Positions 7,066 through 51,865 of a stretch of 64,000 nt of DNA are shown in pieces. The DNA comes from Chitinophagaceae bacterium LGM1. GTDB lineage: Bacteria > Bacteroidota > Bacteroidia > Chitinophagales > Chitinophagaceae. The position numbers were made by a program, and so were the translations under genes. Every line of letters begins with the position of its first letter. Position 1 is the first letter of the stretch. The notes beneath the pieces are model-generated. The model was not told the origin of the DNA. It saw only the letters and a program-made list of their open reading frames with translations, and did not search any database. The stretch spans positions 2,599,001-2,663,000 of the forward strand of contig CP075895.1 in the NCBI GenBank assembly GCA_018604165.1. Reading direction: 5' to 3'.

Positions 7066-8799
7066 TTAATCTCTCCTCAGGTTAGGGAAAGGAGGTGCCA
7101 CATTAGCAGGACCTTCTTCACCAGGCATTGCAGAACGATACATTACACCATTTGCATCACCAGCTTGACCATATTGGAATATGAAGCGATTGCGATCAAT
7201 ACCGTGTTTTTCGCTCATATACTCTATGATAGCGTTTACACGATCCCAAGAACGTTGTTGCTGTATTTTACTACCGTTGCCAGCACCTGTAATAACTACC
7301 TTACAAGTTGGGTTAGCTTGCATTTGAGCAGCCAAAGTAGCCAATTGTGCTTGTGCAGCAGGGCGTATTTTAGATGCATTGTTGTCGAAAGTTACGTTAC
7401 CGGCACCTATACTACCGCAAGTAGGGGCAACTGTACCACAACCTTCCGGACAAGGGCATTTACCTACACCGTCAGCGTCAACTGGTTGACATTCAGTCGG
7501 AGTTATCAATTGCTTATCGCGATCGTCAGGTACACCATCACCATCTGTATCAAGTGGGCAACCATGGCTATCAACAGCTACACCAGCAGGTGTACCAGGA
7601 CATTTGTCAAACTGGTCAGTAATACCATCACCATCACTATCAGGCAGAATTGGATCAGGCAGTTGCATGTGGCGAGGATAAGACAATTCGTTGAAAGCAT
7701 GATCCAATGGATTGATCCAGTAAAGTGGTTCGATGCTTTTGCGTTTGTTACCCAAGTTGAAGTTGATACCAAGGCTCAGATAGTTAACACCATCATTTTG
7801 GTTTGTTTGTACCGGAGAACCGAATACTTGCTCAGACCAACGCTGACCGTCTAAGAGATCATCATCCCAAGGTATAGTTACGCGATCTTCAAGAGCCAAG
7901 TTGATGCGTGGGCTAAGACGGAATTGGAAACCAAGACCGAAGCTAGGCGCAAATTGTAAAGTTTTGTTATTGAAGATTTCAGGACGACGGCGATCACGCT
8001 CATGTTCAGCATCCGTTTCATAAGTGCCATCCATTGCATCTTGCAGTTTAGTTTGAATGTCCCTGCGATTTTCATGAATTTGAGTAGAAGCATTGTTTAT
8101 ACCCAAAATTTGATGAAAATTATATTTCTGACTATTAGGTCCTAAAGCATCAACACGTGTGTTATAAGCATATGCACCCAAACCAACAAAGGCATAAGCA
8201 GATATTGCTGTACGAGCTTTGTGGAACTTAATGTTGTTCAAAGATGCAATCAGGTCAAGATTCAATTGATGTGCTTCTAGGCGATAGTTATAAAAAACAG
8301 GATCAGAAGGTTGATTCAAATTCTCTAACCTTGCAGGCTCATAATAATCTTTCCAAGCAGTGTTGAAACGATAGTTACGGCTTTCCTGCCATTGCAAACC
8401 TTTTGCAACGCCATAGATATATTGCAAACGGGTAGATAATACATAACCCCATGCTTTACGAACATGTAAGTGGTAACCAAGGCCACCGCCGCCTTTAGTT
8501 TGCCAAGCCATCAGCGTTGGCACGTCACCAGATACATTGTAAAGACCTGCACCAAAACCAATTTCCCACATGTTACGAGGACGTGCAGGGAAAGCATACT
8601 GGTGATTCAGGAATTTACGATGTTGTTTCATACGGAAACCGGGCACATAGTTTGTGTCCAAAACGTCGTAGCTCTGACCGCGATATGTCATATCACGTCC
8701 AGACCACTTAGCGGTTTGACTTCCTTCTTGTGCGAATACCGGCTGCGTTGCCAATAGTGAGCATACACCGGCTAGCAATAGGTACCTTTTGTTGACCAT
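7066..8799 (-). CDS. OmpA family outer-membrane protein with thrombospondin type 3 repeats
   Basis: The start is the ATG at 8799, which gives a good signal peptide (MVNKRYLLLAG to VFAQ); the open frame extends 29 codons further upstream across the promoter. The product is ~577 residues. The N-terminal ~300 form a predicted beta-barrel. Next come calcium-binding thrombospondin type 3-like repeats (DSDGDGITDQFDKCPG and DTDGDGVPDDRD), a Cys-rich hinge (KCPCPEGC), and a C-terminal OmpA domain starting NVTFDNNASKIRPAAQ. Such proteins anchor the outer membrane to peptidoglycan. The OmpA domain ends in an unusual ~25-residue Pro-rich tail. Confidence 0.9.
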   Translation of the reverse strand: MVNKRYLLLAGVCSLLATQPVFAQEGSQTAKWSGRDMTYRGQSYDVLDTNYVPGFRMKQHRKFLNHQYAFPARPRNMWEIGFGAGLYNVSGDVPTLMAWQTKGGGGLGYHLHVRKAWGYVLSTRLQYIYGVAKGLQWQESRNYRFNTAWKDYYEPARLENLNQPSDPVFYNYRLEAHQLNLDLIASLNNIKFHKARTAISAYAFVGLGAYAYNTRVDALGPNSQKYNFHQILGINNASTQIHENRRDIQTKLQDAMDGTYETDAEHERDRRRPEIFNNKTLQFAPSFGLGFQFRLSPRINLALEDRVTIPWDDDLLDGQRWSEQVFGSPVQTNQNDGVNYLSLGINFNLGNKRKSIEPLYWINPLDHAFNELSYPRHMQLPDPILPDSDGDGITDQFDKCPGTPAGVAVDSHGCPLDTDGDGVPDDRDKQLITPTECQPVDADGVGKCPCPEGCGTVAPTCGSIGAGNVTFDNNASKIRPAAQAQLATLAAQMQANPTCKVVITGAGNGSKIQQQRSWDRVNAIIEYMSEKHGIDRNRFIFQYGQAGDANGVMYRSAMPGEEGPANVAPPFPNLRRD

Positions 8800-8848
8800 A
8801 ACAGATTGTTTAATTATACAAATTTTGGTTAAATTACTCAAAACATGA

Positions 8849-8880
8849 CAAAGGTATAGCACCACATTCAAAAAAACAAA
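8849..8880 (-). promoter_or_regulatory. Promoter of the ompA-like gene
   Basis: Reading the minus strand, TTTG (8880-8877) and TACCTTTG (8856-8849) are 20 bp apart, an exact match to the Bacteroidota promoter pattern. The predicted leader before the ATG at 8799 is ~45 nt. Confidence 0.75.
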
Positions 8881-9027
8881 GAACAAAAAATAAAAAATAT
8901 TTTATGTTATTGTTTACTATACTGCATTGTACATGGGCATAAAAGTAGTTTTTAATATCAACAACATCAACGATTTTTGCTTTTTTTACGATAGGTTAAC
9001 ATGGTGTTCACCGATTATTAACAACGA

Positions 9028-9990
9028 ATGGAGCTCGTTAAACAGGTTATTGGGCAGGAACTGGACGTATTTGAGAAGAAATTCGCTGATAGTGTAAAAG
9101 GCTCAAACCCTTTACTGGATAGGATTATGCGCTTCATCATCAAGCGGAAAGGCAAGCAGATGCGACCCATGTTTGTATTCCTTTCTGCTAAAATTGCAGG
9201 GGGTATTCAAGAAAAGACTTATAGGGCTGCTTCGCTCATAGAATTACTCCATACAGCCACTTTGGTGCATGATGATGTGGTGGATAATGCCATGCTCCGC
9301 CGCAGCTTTTTTTCTATAAACGCCTTGTGGAAAAATAAAATAGCCGTGCTGGTAGGTGACTATTTATTGGCAAAAGGGCTTCTTTTATCGTTAGAAAACG
9401 ATGATTATCAAATACTTAAGATAACATCAAGGGCTGTAAAAGAGATGAGTGAGGGTGAGCTGCTACAGATGGAAAAAGCACGAAAACTGGACATAAAAGA
9501 AGATATTTACTTTGAGATAATACGTGCCAAAACAGCTTCTTTATTATCATCCGCTTGTGCAGCGGGTGCTTATTCGGCATCCGATGATGTTGCTACATCT
9601 GAGCATTTCCGCCTGTTTGGTGAAAAAGTGGGCATTGCCTTTCAGATAAAGGACGACCTTTTTGACTATGGGCAAGACAATGTAGGCAAGCCTACCGGTA
9701 TAGACATCAAAGAAAAGAAAATGACGCTACCACTCATCTATACGCTGAACAATACAGACGCGGCTACCAAGCGAAAAATCATCTATATCGTTAAAAACCA
9801 GAATACCGACCGCAAAAAAGTACAGGAAGTAATAGACCTAGTAAATCATTCGGGCGGCATTGAATATGCCCGCAACAAAATGAACACATACAAACAAGAA
9901 GCATTAGATATGCTGCACCAATACCCGCAAAGCCCCGCCAGAGAAGCGATGGAATCGCTTGTTAATTATGCTATAGAAAGAAAGTACTAA
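9028..9990 (+). CDS. Polyprenyl diphosphate synthase
   Basis: A 320-residue trans-isoprenyl diphosphate synthase. Both aspartate-rich metal-binding motifs are present: DDVVD at residues 82-86 (in LVHDDVVDNAMLRR) and DDLFD at 209-213 (in FQIKDDLFDYGQD), with GKQMRPMF before the first and KPTGIDIKEKKMTLPLIY after the second. It condenses isopentenyl diphosphate with an allylic primer to make a long prenyl chain, probably for menaquinone side chains. The residues before the first motif are small or medium, which fits a long-chain product, but chain length cannot be fixed by eye. It is followed by uvrA after 63 bp on the same strand. Confidence 0.93.
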   Translation: MELVKQVIGQELDVFEKKFADSVKGSNPLLDRIMRFIIKRKGKQMRPMFVFLSAKIAGGIQEKTYRAASLIELLHTATLVHDDVVDNAMLRRSFFSINALWKNKIAVLVGDYLLAKGLLLSLENDDYQILKITSRAVKEMSEGELLQMEKARKLDIKEDIYFEIIRAKTASLLSSACAAGAYSASDDVATSEHFRLFGEKVGIAFQIKDDLFDYGQDNVGKPTGIDIKEKKMTLPLIYTLNNTDAATKRKIIYIVKNQNTDRKKVQEVIDLVNHSGGIEYARNKMNTYKQEALDMLHQYPQSPAREAMESLVNYAIERKY

Positions 9991-46715: not shown

Positions 46716-48842
46716 TTAATCATCTAGTTTATCTAAGTGTTTCAAATTATCAGGAATTTGTAACATATCCTTAAACGCTTTGACATTAGATTGGTTTCTA
46801 TATTTATTAATTAAATTCCTAACAACAAGAAAAATTACAATAGTAATAATAATCGGAACTGTCCATTTTAGAATTATATTGTTGGATAATTCATCTAATT
46901 TTGATATAAACTTGCTAACATTCCATTGACAGTTATAAAAGATACAAAGCACTATCAACACTATTACTAAAATACAAAAAAACAACTCCCGCCATGACTT
47001 CGATCTCCATTTTTTAACTTCGGTTTTTACCCATTCCTCTCTTAGTTCTTTTCTTATTTTATTTTTTTCAATTAACCTTTTTTGTTTTTGCTCTTCGATT
47101 TCTTTTGACATTTCCTGTAACTTATCTTGAGCCTCTTTTGACTGTCTTTCATGGCTGCTTTTTACTCTATCTAAGTTATCAATTTTCTTAACTAGCCCTT
47201 TAAGTAGTTCATCCATTTTCTTTTTTTCTTCCTCTTCTTCTTCTTTTTGTGCCAGTGACATTGTTTCTAATCGCCTAACGAACTCTTCAGAATCCTTTTG
47301 AGCTAACAAGTTCAACTGCTCAATATTATTAACCCTTTTATTAGCTATTCTTGTTGCTACCCTGTATACATCTTTATCAGTTAAGTTATCCTTAGCGTAT
47401 TTTTGAATGTTGTCGTCTAACTCTTTTATGATGCTTGCCTTGGGTAAATTTTCGTTTAATGTGCATGAAATTAAAGTTGTAATCCCTATATCCACAAGTT
47501 CAGAGTTATGAATATTCATTGAAACATTAGGGTTGCTTAACCATAATATATTTAATAAGTCATCAACCTTGATGGTTATAGGTAAACTATCTTTCCCCTT
47601 AGCATAATCCACGCTCTGATAATTATCAGAAATTGAATTATTTACAAACCAACAATTAACTTTTTCGAAGTCTTTTATCTTCTTATCCCCTCTTTTTGAC
47701 TTTACGTACTGTATTGCAGTAGCATCATGTAATGCTGCTATATCATTATATCTAATTTTTTTCAGTGCTATGTATTCATCACTGAACTTTCCTAAGTTTC
47801 TATATTTAGTTGTATCGGGAATAACAATAATCCCTTTACTGCTTAATGTATCCTCTAAGTTATCAGCAATTCTATCAATATCTACTTTACTTAATTTTCT
47901 ACGATCGCAAGCATTATAAATATCCTCAGGATTGACTTTTTTCTGAAGAAACGTCTTATCGAAATTTTCTGCTTTTTTATGAAGAAGGTTACTAGCTTCC
48001 TCAATAGTATCAATCAAAACATTTGTTTTAAACCCCAATGATTTTGCAACATCCAATAGTTTCGAACAGGTTTTAGTAGATTCTGGTGTGTTTAAATCAA
48101 TAAGACTTATTATGTAATTAGTATCAAATACTAATTCCACTTCTACTTTTATTTTTTCTGGTTCATACTCTATGTAACTTGAAATTATTGACCCTAAGTA
48201 TATGTTTCTAATCAATTCATATACTGTAGCAATAGACTTAAAGTACTCTACAAATCTAGCTTCAATTGTATAGTCATGGTTATTTGTTTTAACACTGCCT
48301 TTTAAATATTTACCTAGTGTTAATTTATTAAGTTCTATAAAGGTGAAAATTGAACCGTATTCTTCTCTTGTAATATTATTTAACTTACAAAACTGGATAA
48401 ATATTCTTTCTAGTTCTTGTATTTCAAATGCCTTCTTTTCAATAAAATCGTCAAACTGGGCAAATACGTAATTATTTATTGCAAATGAACCATCTTGGTA
48501 TAATTGGAAATGAATAACATCTTCTGTATTAACTTCTTTTGCTATTTTTAATAATATCTTTTTTAATACTGGAAGCGGTATCTCAATATCATATAATTGG
48601 CTCACTATAGCCTCAATTTCAGATATATTTTTCCCGCTGAATTGTCCCTCTCTATTCAAAATAGATATTGCTCGTTTTACTATAGGCACAAAAACATCAA
48701 GTAAGTCAGTCATTAACGTTGAAGAATTATATACGTGCGCTAACAAACTGTATGCAAGTATTCTATCTGTCTTTTTCAAATCAAAATAATTTACTAACTC
48801 TAATCTACAACACCCTTTGTTAACAACAAAAAAGCTGCCCAT
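46716..48842 (-). CDS. Membrane-anchored protein with PIN-like nuclease domain and coiled coil
   Basis: Up to 708 residues; numbering is from the first ATG. The first ~225 residues are helical with no known family. Residues ~235-405 look like a PIN-like domain: VFDTNYIISLID with Asp240, TIEEA with Glu281/282, ALHDATAIQYV with Asp373, then CWFVNNS where the last acidic residue of the usual TnD is Asn. A charged coiled coil covers ~525-610 and two transmembrane helices lie at ~618-637 and ~656-675, leaving a short cytoplasmic tail. It is strikingly AT-rich compared with its neighbours. The first ATG lies inside the upstream terminator loop, so the true start may be later (for example Met44 at 48713). 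It may be a defence or toxin-like RNase. Confidence 0.7.
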   Translation of the reverse strand: MGSFFVVNKGCCRLELVNYFDLKKTDRILAYSLLAHVYNSSTLMTDLLDVFVPIVKRAISILNREGQFSGKNISEIEAIVSQLYDIEIPLPVLKKILLKIAKEVNTEDVIHFQLYQDGSFAINNYVFAQFDDFIEKKAFEIQELERIFIQFCKLNNITREEYGSIFTFIELNKLTLGKYLKGSVKTNNHDYTIEARFVEYFKSIATVYELIRNIYLGSIISSYIEYEPEKIKVEVELVFDTNYIISLIDLNTPESTKTCSKLLDVAKSLGFKTNVLIDTIEEASNLLHKKAENFDKTFLQKKVNPEDIYNACDRRKLSKVDIDRIADNLEDTLSSKGIIVIPDTTKYRNLGKFSDEYIALKKIRYNDIAALHDATAIQYVKSKRGDKKIKDFEKVNCWFVNNSISDNYQSVDYAKGKDSLPITIKVDDLLNILWLSNPNVSMNIHNSELVDIGITTLISCTLNENLPKASIIKELDDNIQKYAKDNLTDKDVYRVATRIANKRVNNIEQLNLLAQKDSEEFVRRLETMSLAQKEEEEEEKKKMDELLKGLVKKIDNLDRVKSSHERQSKEAQDKLQEMSKEIEEQKQKRLIEKNKIRKELREEWVKTEVKKWRSKSWRELFFCILVIVLIVLCIFYNCQWNVSKFISKLDELSNNIILKWTVPIIITIVIFLVVRNLINKYRNQSNVKAFKDMLQIPDNLKHLDKLDD

Positions 48843-48852
48843 ACAGGCAGCT
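48827..48852 (-). terminator. Intrinsic terminator of the YHYH gene
   Basis: AGCTGCC (48833-48839) pairs with GGCAGCT (48846-48852); on the minus strand the stem is followed by TTTTTTGTTG. The first ATG of the PIN-domain frame is in the loop. Confidence 0.85.
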
Positions 48853-48883: not shown

Positions 48884-50071
48884 TTATTGCTTCACTACAC
48901 GTTTTATAAAGCCAGCACCCTTATCATCCTGTAAACCTATAAAGTACATGCCATAGCTATAGCTACTCATGTCTATCTGCACGGTGGTATTTATTTTCTT
49001 TTCTTGCAACACTTTACCCTCTACATTATATACTGTCAGGGTATAGTTCTTATTTTCTTTTAGTTGCACAGTCAGGTAGTCTTTTACAGGTACGGGGTAC
49101 ATCTTCACAGCATCGTCCATTGCTTCTACTTCTTTTACAGCCGTAGTTGGTTGGTATTGTGTAGCACCGCCCGGCACGGTAGCTTTACCACCATTAGGAC
49201 CTGTATTACCTGTTTGCAGGTTGCCATAATATGTAGGTCCTATAAAATATGGGTAGATGGGTTTCAACGATGCATCTACCGTAGTAAAGTATGCGTACGT
49301 GCCGTTGGGGTATTCAGGTGTTTTACAGAAACGGCCATTGTGCTCGTCCAGATGCCCGGAGCCTGCTGTGTATTGCCAGTCTTCTATAAAACAGCCTATC
49401 GGGTATTGTGTGTTCACATTCGGTCCGTTAGTACGTGTGGTGTACGATTTTGTACTGTAGCTGGTTTGCATCCTTGTAATGCCACCAGTACCATCTGTAT
49501 TGGCATAGGCATAAGGGCCATACACAGGGTAGCCATCCCATGCATAGGCTACAATGGGAGAGTGTTTGGATGCATCAAAATCGTGCAGTGCGAGATTATC
49601 AAAATGGTGGTGGTACATATTGGTAGGTGTACTGTGCCCGTTGTACGGGTCCATATCATTGCCTTCAAAATAATAGGCAAGCCTGTTCCATACACCAGCA
49701 CCGTTGTAAGACTGTGCATCGCCCGGGTGAAAGAATACGGAGCCATCATACATGAGCCCCGTTTGTCCGCCTACCACGCTGGGCTTGGTAGTAGCTACAG
49801 ATGGAGTACGTGGCAATGTCCAAGTGGCTTGCAAATCTTTGGCGTTGTTTACAGTCAGGCCATCTTTGTAATAATTGGGGATGCCGCTTGTCTTTACATA
49901 CACATTGGTAGTGGTATAGTACACCGCTTCTACATCTGTTAGAATGCCGTTATATTTATTGTTAGTCGTGTTAAACCACCATTTGGTTATCATGGGGTCT
50001 GTAACTGTTTGTGCACCTGCTATGGCAGTGTACATAAGCATAAGCATCAGGAGTGCGTTTTTCTTCAGCAT
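48884..50071 (-). CDS. YHYH domain protein with T9SS sorting domain
   Basis: A 395-residue exported protein with a signal peptide (~20 residues, ending AGAQ). The central region (~130-290) is a YHYH domain: the His-rich MYHHHFDNLALHDFD, AYAWDGYPVYGPYAY, GCFIEDWQYT, GHLDEHNGRFCKTPEYPNG and YPYFIGPTYYG. The last ~75 residues are a T9SS sorting domain (VKMYPVPVKDYLTVQL to KRVVKQ). The His and acidic clusters suggest metal binding, but the biochemical role of YHYH proteins is not known to me. It is the last gene of a probable operon with MbnP-like and MbnH-like genes and ends at a strong terminator. Confidence 0.9.
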   Translation of the reverse strand: MLKKNALLMLMLMYTAIAGAQTVTDPMITKWWFNTTNNKYNGILTDVEAVYYTTTNVYVKTSGIPNYYKDGLTVNNAKDLQATWTLPRTPSVATTKPSVVGGQTGLMYDGSVFFHPGDAQSYNGAGVWNRLAYYFEGNDMDPYNGHSTPTNMYHHHFDNLALHDFDASKHSPIVAYAWDGYPVYGPYAYANTDGTGGITRMQTSYSTKSYTTRTNGPNVNTQYPIGCFIEDWQYTAGSGHLDEHNGRFCKTPEYPNGTYAYFTTVDASLKPIYPYFIGPTYYGNLQTGNTGPNGGKATVPGGATQYQPTTAVKEVEAMDDAVKMYPVPVKDYLTVQLKENKNYTLTVYNVEGKVLQEKKINTTVQIDMSSYSYGMYFIGLQDDKGAGFIKRVVKQ

Positions 50072-50135
50072 AAATATTTTTGTTTTAGCAGATACAATAT
50101 GGTTGTCTTCTTATCATGTTTAGACGACAGCCACT

Positions 50136-51170
50136 TTACAATCCTTCGCTCTGTTCAAAATATTTTTTCGGAAAGCCGTATGCAGTATTGGAAACAAATG
50201 TTTTATCATTCAGCGTTGCCAGAAAACTTATCAGGTAAAACTTCTCTTCATTATTCATAAACACTCCTTTTTGCAACTGTGTTGCCAGTGTAGGTGTACG
50301 CTGGATGCCCATAGCATAATGGTTGAGTACCTGCCCCAAATGTTTAAACCTGCCATCGTGCATGTAAGGGTAGCTATACTTCAGGTTGCGGAGTGTGGGC
50401 ACTTTAAACTTCAACGAGTCTATTGGCAGTTTGGTTATTGCCATACGCCCGCTGTCATTCAGGGTATTGTCAACATACAATCCGTTGTTCTCAAAGCTGT
50501 AATTGGTAAACAATGGCTCTGTATGGCAAGATGCACAATGCTGTTTGTACAAGGCATAGCCTTTACTTTCCTGCTCGGTAAATGCTGCCTGCTTGCGCAT
50601 CACGCTATCGTACTTTGCATTTTTACTCACAAGCGTGAGCATGAATTGCGAAAGGGCTTGCAGCAGGTGTTGTCCTGTTATTACAGAATCTCCATAGGCT
50701 TTATAAAACAAGTTGGGGTAACGTGTATTGCTTTGCAGTTTGCGGATAACGTTGGGCAAGCTCTCATCCATTTCAAGCGGATTGGTAATGGGAGCAAGCG
50801 ATTGCACGTCAAGGTGGTTTATAGAGCCATCCCACATAAAGCTGCTACTCCATGCAAGGTTCATCAACGCCGGAGAATTGCGCTTGCCAATCCTGTCATT
50901 AATCCCATGGCTCAAGTCATGGTCAACATGCGTAAAAGCATTGAATGGCGAATGACAACTTGCACAAGATGTAGTGCTATCTCTTGATAGTACAGGGTCG
51001 TAAAACAGCATCCTGCCCAGTTCCACTTTGTTGAGCGATAGTGGGTTTTTACCAAAATCATATACAGGCTTAGGCCAGCCCTTGGGTATGGCAAACTGTA
51101 TCTTGTTCGTCTTAAACGATAGCAAGGCAACCGTTGCCAGCAGACAGCTTATGACCAATCCCTTTTTCAC
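50136..51170 (-). CDS. Diheme MauG/MbnH-like cytochrome c peroxidase family protein
   Basis: The start is a GTG at 51170, overlapping the upstream stop as GTGA, so translation is coupled. The 344-residue protein has an N-terminal signal or anchor and two heme c sites, CASCH at 69-73 and CASCH at 212-216. FMWDGS (Trp113) and PYMHDGRF (His271) match the bacterial diheme peroxidase/MauG fold. In this family MauG and MbnH use high-valent hemes to modify a Trp of a partner protein. The neighbour is MbnP-like, so an MbnH role is more likely than H2O2 removal. Haem ligand details cannot be settled from sequence alone. Confidence 0.88.
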   Translation of the reverse strand: MKKGLVISCLLATVALLSFKTNKIQFAIPKGWPKPVYDFGKNPLSLNKVELGRMLFYDPVLSRDSTTSCASCHSPFNAFTHVDHDLSHGINDRIGKRNSPALMNLAWSSSFMWDGSINHLDVQSLAPITNPLEMDESLPNVIRKLQSNTRYPNLFYKAYGDSVITGQHLLQALSQFMLTLVSKNAKYDSVMRKQAAFTEQESKGYALYKQHCASCHTEPLFTNYSFENNGLYVDNTLNDSGRMAITKLPIDSLKFKVPTLRNLKYSYPYMHDGRFKHLGQVLNHYAMGIQRTPTLATQLQKGVFMNNEEKFYLISFLATLNDKTFVSNTAYGFPKKYFEQSEGL

Positions 51171-51865
51171 TGCTGTTGTATGTTTAGGGTAGCTGCTAAT
51201 TGTTTAGCAAGTTGTACGGCCTCTGCACTCGGACTCATGATGGTGTGTTGCTGGCGCAAGTCTATTTGTTGCAGCCATTTGTCTAAAGGTATCTCTATCG
51301 TCATGGCATTAGGTGCATCTACATTTCGCAATGTTACCTGTACCAGTGCATTATCCTTGCCTGCATAGCCCCCAATATGAAACTGAAACTCGTTACGACG
51401 TGTATTACAGAGGTTGCTGTTGCCCTCAACCTTGAAGTTGATATAACCACTCTGCCAAGCCCAATACATGCCTTTTTCGGGGTCTAAATCGCCACCATGT
51501 GCCCCAGATACACTCATGATACTATCTACACCAATACTGAAATGAATTGCATCGTACTTGGGTATGTTTGACAATCGTAGCTGCAAGGTGGTTGGTTCAG
51601 CCATATCCAGTAAGTGATAACTATTGGGTTCTCTGTAAACTATCTTACCGTTTACAGACAAGGATATAGCCGATATATAACAACGGAAATTGGTTATTTG
51701 CAAACTATCGCCCGATGGTAGCTTGTAATACTTCTCTGCATCTACAGGCTTACCACCCCATGTGGGTACAAACCGTAAGTTGAGGTGCTGTGCTACTACC
51801 ACCTGTGCGCAACAGAACAAACATATCAACAATAGCGGGCGGAGAAGCATATATGGGTGTTTCAC
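51167..51865 (-). CDS. MbnP family protein (putative copper-binding)
   Basis: A 232-residue exported protein with a signal peptide (~26 residues). The body has the MbnP pattern: LNLRFVPTWGGKPVDAEKYY at the mature start, LQITNFRCYISAISL, and the signature GMYWAWQSGYINFKVEG with Trp135 and Trp137, then RRNEFQFHIGGY. MbnP proteins are periplasmic partners of the diheme enzyme MbnH; in methanotrophs a Trp is oxidised to kynurenine and takes part in copper binding. Here the diheme gene overlaps its end by 4 bp. The C-terminus is helical. Whether a Trp here is modified is inference. Confidence 0.85.
   Translation of the reverse strand: MKHPYMLLRPLLLICLFCCAQVVVAQHLNLRFVPTWGGKPVDAEKYYKLPSGDSLQITNFRCYISAISLSVNGKIVYREPNSYHLLDMAEPTTLQLRLSNIPKYDAIHFSIGVDSIMSVSGAHGGDLDPEKGMYWAWQSGYINFKVEGNSNLCNTRRNEFQFHIGGYAGKDNALVQVTLRNVDAPNAMTIEIPLDKWLQQIDLRQQHTIMSPSAEAVQLAKQLAATLNIQQQ

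Follow-up and report, generated by a model that had tools for sequence, protein, structure and literature searches.

What brings together, in a bacterium of the Chitinophagaceae, the genes of an MbnP-family secreted protein, a MauG/MbnH-type diheme enzyme and a YHYH protein that carries a sorting domain of the type IX secretion system (T9SS)? The question is raised by a 64,000-nucleotide stretch of the Chitinophagaceae bacterium LGM1 genome (contig CP075895.1, positions 2,599,001 to 2,663,000), the whole of which is called the window here and in which the three genes were found with the order, strand and GTGA overlap given in the initial annotation, 64 bases separating the diheme gene from the YHYH gene:

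51865-51167, minus strand: MbnP-family secreted protein gene, open reading frame of 232 aa, PF20243
51170-50136, minus strand: MauG/MbnH-type diheme enzyme gene, open reading frame of 344 aa, PF03150, GTGA overlap with the MbnP gene
50071-48884, minus strand: YHYH protein gene with C-terminal T9SS sorting domain, open reading frame of 395 aa, PF14240 and PF18962

The families of these proteins, their key residues, the MbnP fold and a neighbourhood conserved in two phyla were established in the analysis. About half of our confidence goes to the reading that the locus represents a conserved extracytoplasmic copper module of three parts, where a kynurenine-bearing MbnP would serve the YHYH protein.

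The grouping of the three genes goes beyond chance and recurs in many genomes, several of them draft metagenome bins. MbnP, MbnH and YHYH genes stand together, as a trio, in 43 loci, each with its own MbnH sequence, and in two gene orders. When loci of named genomes were chosen by YHYH similarity alone, the trio was found in 29 of 80, with 14 in the order MbnP-MbnH-YHYH (order A, as in the window) and 15 in the order YHYH-MbnP-MbnH (order B), and one further trio locus (L038) has its YHYH gene in a divergent orientation. Among 121 relatives, an MbnP gene lies within 5 kb of 20 of the 32 full-length YHYH genes, and among 296 evenly sampled Bacteroidota genomes the two families are no more than 5 kb apart in 8 of the 13 genomes having both, the rough probability of this being 2e-10 under a generous chance model that ignores phylogeny. 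The neighbourhood, for which the initial annotation had considered the possibility of no conservation, is thus strongly conserved. The initial annotation had also reported no methanobactin biosynthesis genes, and a TIGR04159 search gave no MbnB match anywhere in the window genome.

A quick MbnH tree was made of 58 diheme proteins, of which 43 belong to trios. In it the enzymes of the trios group apart from those of YHYH-less, lipoprotein-type pairs, with two interspersed exceptions (one is L065); 3 label changes were counted per group, and 13 to 19 after shuffling of the labels. The lipoprotein signal of CKKDD type is absent from the trio MbnPs and present in nearly all other MbnPs of the genomes examined. 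Since the trio MbnHs cluster apart and the trio MbnPs are devoid of this signal, the YHYH-linked pairs are, by their sequences, a subfamily of their own with a different predicted location.

Some individual loci were recorded separately. In L065 (G025:C4) the MbnP-MbnH pair is intact and the YHYH gene is decayed, with three in-frame stops. The MbnH frame of Chryseobacterium formosus (L120:5865-6934) is split into 136 and 233 aa beside intact MbnP and YHYH genes, and further along, at 8385-9590, lies a second lipoprotein gene of the CCP_MauG family. A record named Actinomyces viscosus (L082) bears a Bacteroidota-type trio and is probably a mislabelled metagenome bin. The window genome itself holds two further MbnPs (G000:C1:424172-425462 and C1:1000954-1001544), both of the lipoprotein type with the CKKDD signal, one of which has its own MbnH while the other has no diheme neighbour.

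The window MbnP matches PF20243 with 155.2 bits (cut-off 27, E 2.4e-45) in the Pfam profile search, and its likely real start is the ATG at 51850, with a predicted signal peptide and no lipobox. Its residues are numbered here from the GTG start, and on this count the tryptophans of the family phrase fall exactly at the positions 135 and 137 named by the initial annotation:

51455..51469, minus strand: WxW motif of MbnP, M133-Y-W135-A-W137, with W135 as the predicted kynurenine site and M133 as a candidate copper ligand
51377..51379, minus strand: His163 of MbnP, candidate copper ligand, invariant in two MbnP alignments and aligned to a His of 7l6g

All four residues (W135, W137, M133 and H163) are invariant in 30 of 30 aligned trio MbnPs, and WxW is kept in every trio MbnP whose sequence covers the motif. 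With a broad profile these positions were aligned to GMAWNW and to a His in 7l6g, the MbnP structure solved from Methylosinus trichosporium (PDB match, E 0.02); PDB searches with the single MbnP sequence or with a trio-only MbnP profile gave no match. The AlphaFold model of the window MbnP, built from 30 sequences (predicted local distance difference test, pLDDT, 88), matches the same structure with a Foldseek E of 3.5e-9 and a template modelling score of 0.53-0.63, depending on the query length, while the next unrelated match has E 0.075 and no other fold is significant. In that MbnP the Trp that MbnH converts to kynurenine is said to be the first one of WxW, and Cu(I) is reportedly bound by a His and a Met.

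The diheme protein of the window scores 182 bits with the Pfam CCP_MauG family (PF03150, E 1.5e-53), and its two haem motifs and Tyr haem ligand were located:

50952..50966, minus strand: haem 1 motif C69-x-x-C72-H73, invariant in 20 trio MbnHs
50523..50537, minus strand: haem 2 motif C212-x-x-C215-H216, invariant in 20 trio MbnHs
50316..50318, minus strand: Tyr285, equivalent to the haem ligand Tyr294 of MauG by ungapped alignment to MauG 3svw/4y5r and to 3o5c, invariant in the trio

Because Tyr285 falls on position 294 of MauG, where peroxidases (3o5c) carry Met, the enzyme is assigned to the MauG type. The alignments therefore retain both the invariant WxW and the MauG-type Tyr, the residues whose absence the initial annotation had proposed to look for. 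The MbnP/MbnH-type pair that it described is upheld by family profiles, WxW and the Tyr ligand, but the NCBIfam equivalog scores are below their cut-offs: 39.9 bits against 140 for MbnP (TIGR04052), 202.7 against 362.85 for MbnH (TIGR04039) and 205.4 against 443.9 for MauG (TIGR03791). As the scores are so far under the cut-offs, the two window proteins are considered as family members and not as methanotroph orthologues.

The third protein matches PF14240 with 142 bits (cut-off 25, E 2.7e-41) and has a Por secretion tail (PF18962, 49 bits, E 7e-13), and its model has a pLDDT of 91:

49268..49825, minus strand: YHYH domain, residues 83-268, from an alignment of 61 sequences
48887..49102, minus strand: T9SS type A sorting domain, residues 324-395, TIGR04183 with 41 bits, fold matching 8qb1 and 8glk

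The sorting domain noticed in the initial annotation is borne out by these matches and by the presence in the window genome of the translocon component SprA (2579 bits), the surface location of the protein being a prediction. When a solved structure was sought by sequence and fold, only the T9SS tail was matched and the core had no significant match. The residues H146, H154, H156, H170, D118, E136, D141, D179 and D231 are invariant in the 61 sequences, and a phage study predicted the YHYH domain to be a metal-dependent (Zn) hydrolase from its His triad and Asp (PMC7824862). Due to this invariant set and the earlier Zn-site prediction the YHYH protein is likely a metalloprotein, while copper as its metal is suggested only by the partner genes.

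Outside Bacteroidota the picture changes in one component. MbnP is nearly absent in Planctomycetota (1 of 216 genomes, that one being the chosen centre of the sample). In the Phycisphaeraceae locus L133:8115-10010 a natural MbnP-MbnH fusion of 631 aa follows right after the YHYH gene and keeps WSW. A MauG-type gene adjoins the YHYH gene in 3 of 19 other Planctomycetota genomes with full-length YHYH and also in two Planctomycetota loci from the YHYH search (L118 and L126), and this enzyme has the Tyr ligand. All five of these YHYH-MauG loci (L118, L126, L155, L156 and L157) hold a small YtkA-like His/Met lipoprotein with the pattern MPxHGHGM...GMx[YF]HMxGxWE, whereas the remaining Planctomycetota YHYH loci have neither a YtkA-like small protein nor a MauG gene adjoining. 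Because the YtkA-like protein replaces MbnP in these five loci, what stays constant in the module is the pairing of the YHYH protein with a diheme enzyme of the MauG type, and the small copper-linked protein can be exchanged. In Bacillus subtilis the YtkA domain aids the assembly of CuA (PMC13344008), and the replacement of MbnP by a copper-delivery domain suggests a copper-donor role for MbnP. The link of YHYH to MbnP/MbnH, from which the initial annotation suggested a third, metal-binding component, is supported by the conserved neighbourhood, but the protein is not simply an MbnP accessory, since in Planctomycetota it is paired with a MauG-type enzyme and a YtkA-like protein without MbnP; its metal binding is predicted.

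According to the proposed mechanism MbnP would be exported to the periplasm, the MauG/MbnH-type enzyme would oxidise W135, the first Trp of WxW, to kynurenine, and the kynurenine with nearby Met and His residues (candidates M133 and H163) would form a Cu(I) site. For the window MbnP both the kynurenine formation and the copper binding are deduced by homology, and the oxidation of W135 is proposed because of this homology together with the residue conservation. Copper-loaded MbnP may then hold copper for the YHYH protein or hand it over, a step proposed from the neighbourhood and the MbnP/YtkA exchange. The YHYH protein would be a His/Asp-rich metalloprotein, probably an enzyme, that receives copper before or during T9SS export; its activity, like the copper transfer to it, is surmised from gene neighbourhood only. 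The T9SS would move it to the cell surface, as proposed from the sorting domain, and in Planctomycetota the YtkA-like His/Met lipoprotein would take the MbnP role beside YHYH and the MauG-type enzyme.

Several observations weigh against this mechanism. Many YHYHs are located away from MbnP/MbnH, and the invariant His/Asp set is the same in the 61 sequences with or without these neighbours, so the YHYH metal site needs neither protein; furthermore, the published prediction makes YHYH a Zn-dependent hydrolase (PMC7824862). In the planctomycete fusion the Met before WxW is replaced by Leu, and hence M133 may not be an obligatory copper ligand. The inter-haem Trp (W113) is present in the window and is Q, L or R in L031, L039, L040 and L053. 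Two ideas on further components, which accompany part of the trios, were rejected: that a cassette with an extracytoplasmic function (ECF) sigma factor and a Spy-like protein belongs to the module in the window, since it is absent from the locus there, and that a copper oxidase is always present, no multicopper oxidase being found in the window genome.

A wider alternative, possible though rather unlikely, is that YHYH proteins are a new class of clients of MauG-type enzymes, where the diheme enzyme, together with either MbnP or a YtkA-like protein as interchangeable donors of copper, would build a metal or radical site in them post-translationally. If this were true, they would be copper enzymes of the cell surface whose maturation depends on a three-protein system of their own, present in at least two phyla.

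The main rival of the copper module is the modification of YHYH by the diheme enzyme: the YHYH protein itself would be the substrate, or a second one, with a residue oxidised in the periplasm before export to give a cofactor or metal site, and MbnP or YtkA would only supply copper. This is held to be unlikely. The Planctomycetota YHYH does pair with a Tyr-ligand MauG-type enzyme in loci without MbnP, the genes being as close as 4-10 bp (L157, and L118 via YtkA), and two tryptophans of YHYH, W31 and W128, are (nearly) invariant and could be the oxidised residues, unless a Tyr is. These tryptophans, however, are conserved to the same degree where YHYH has no diheme neighbour, so the search for a Trp specific to diheme-linked copies ended in rejection, and the planctomycete enzyme could act instead on the YtkA-like protein, in which the Trp of GxWE[LV] is invariant in five sequences.

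It is quite unlikely that the module serves detoxification or sequestration of copper or another metal, with the surface YHYH protein as a metal sponge or stress enzyme induced by metal excess via an envelope sensor of the ECF/Spy type. In about 10 of the 26 trios of order A (among them L031, L032, L037, L039, L040, L103, L117, L120 and L145) the MbnP gene is indeed immediately preceded by genes for an ECF sigma factor, a membrane protein of about 90 residues and a Spy/CpxP-like LTXXQ protein, and this layout resembles that of sigma systems for envelope and metal sensing, for example CnrYXH. A CueO-like multicopper oxidase with a T9SS tail, CueO being a detoxification enzyme, stands beside YHYH or within the set in L145, L122, L132, L136 and L032. 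Both associations also count as metal links in favour of the copper module. Against this, the cassette was found in none of the order-B trios, LTXXQ proteins respond to general envelope stress too, and the window locus has neither cassette nor oxidase. The cassette was also seen beside a lone YHYH in L092 and L101.

That YHYH is a functionally independent metal-dependent hydrolase whose gene is merely co-regulated or co-transferred with those of other surface functions is very improbable, for although it has the Zn-hydrolase prediction (PMC7824862) and the wide occurrence of YHYH without the pair, beside sulfatase, phosphatase, PEBP and HupE/UreJ genes, in its favour, co-transfer alone hardly explains the repeated re-linking in two orders and a divergent orientation, nor does it readily account for the fusion in another phylum or for the separate set of YHYH, MauG and YtkA.

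In a number of loci (L132, L134, L136, L137; L098, L112, L116, L119, L123) YHYH has other neighbours: in Bacteroidota these are T9SS sulfatases, metallophosphatases and thioredoxins, and in Planctomycetota they are FGE-sulfatase-domain proteins. In a plasmid search no MbnP was found, and the plasmid YHYHs of Loktanella, Pacificitalea, Deinococcus and Tsukamurella have neighbours other than MbnP/MbnH, such as the tandem YHYH - PEBP - PEBP - YHYH of the Loktanella plasmid (L161) and the HupE/UreJ family gene that follows YHYH on the Deinococcus plasmid (L163).

As to the borders of the transcription unit, the flanking terminators of the initial annotation were found by the terminator scan, with no hairpin reading in the minus direction inside the three-gene set:

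51941-51920, minus strand: terminator-like hairpin upstream of the set, ending the preceding lipoprotein gene
48833-48852, placed by the scan on the plus strand: terminator-like hairpin downstream of YHYH, the minus strand being AGCTGCC...GGCAGCTTTTTT

Since the region has 6 terminators against 4.1 +- 2.2 in shuffles, a slight excess, these hairpins are weak evidence by themselves. Between YHYH and the next conserved gene there is a 708-aa open reading frame (46716-48842, minus strand) that has no Pfam or NCBIfam match and no convincing one in PHROG and looks like an insertion, because same-genus relatives (L043, L045 and L046) have no such frame there; its true start is probably further downstream, as the listed ATG falls within the terminator hairpin.

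The copper module reading would give the MbnP/MbnH pairs, which are widespread outside methanotrophs, a concrete candidate client in the conserved third protein, and would give YHYH proteins, common in bacteria, phages and diatoms, a testable biochemical context. The MbnP-MbnH pair is already known, also outside methanobactin operons, and its members were termed mysterious partners (PMC3621798). The YHYH partnership and the MbnP/YtkA swap are apparently new: in a literature search of partial coverage, with subscription papers excluded, no description of either a YHYH-MbnH link or this swap was found.

Compared with the known systems, the window pair is closest to the methanotroph MbnP-MbnH (TIGR04052/TIGR04039, GenProp0940, "metallo-mystery pair", 7l6g), with which it shares the PF20243 fold, WxW, His and Met and an adjacent MauG-family diheme gene, while differing in scores under both equivalog cut-offs, in YHYH-T9SS as the third conserved gene and in an MbnP predicted to be soluble and secreted, where nearly all non-trio MbnPs examined are lipoproteins. 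MopE/SACCP and CorA/CorB share a partner diheme protein and a kynurenine copper site, the kynurenine next to copper being documented in MopE and CorA, which are copper-repressed (PMC3912023); however, these are not MbnP homologues by sequence (PMC3621798) and have no YHYH. MauG has the same Tyr haem ligand and two CxxCH motifs and oxidises Trp in its partner protein, whereas the window enzyme scores about equally on the MauG and MbnH models, well under the MauG cut-off, no methylamine dehydrogenase context is seen at the window, and the inter-haem Trp is not invariant in its family. The phage-tail YHYH (PF14240) has the same domain with a His triad and Asp (PMC7824862), but the window protein is a secreted cellular one with a T9SS tail beside copper-protein genes. 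Finally, the YtkA/CtaK copper-delivery domain (PMC13344008) is related to the YtkA-like lipoprotein that fills the MbnP place in the Planctomycetota sets, whose genes, in contrast, adjoin no heme-copper oxidase genes and have no counterpart in the window locus.

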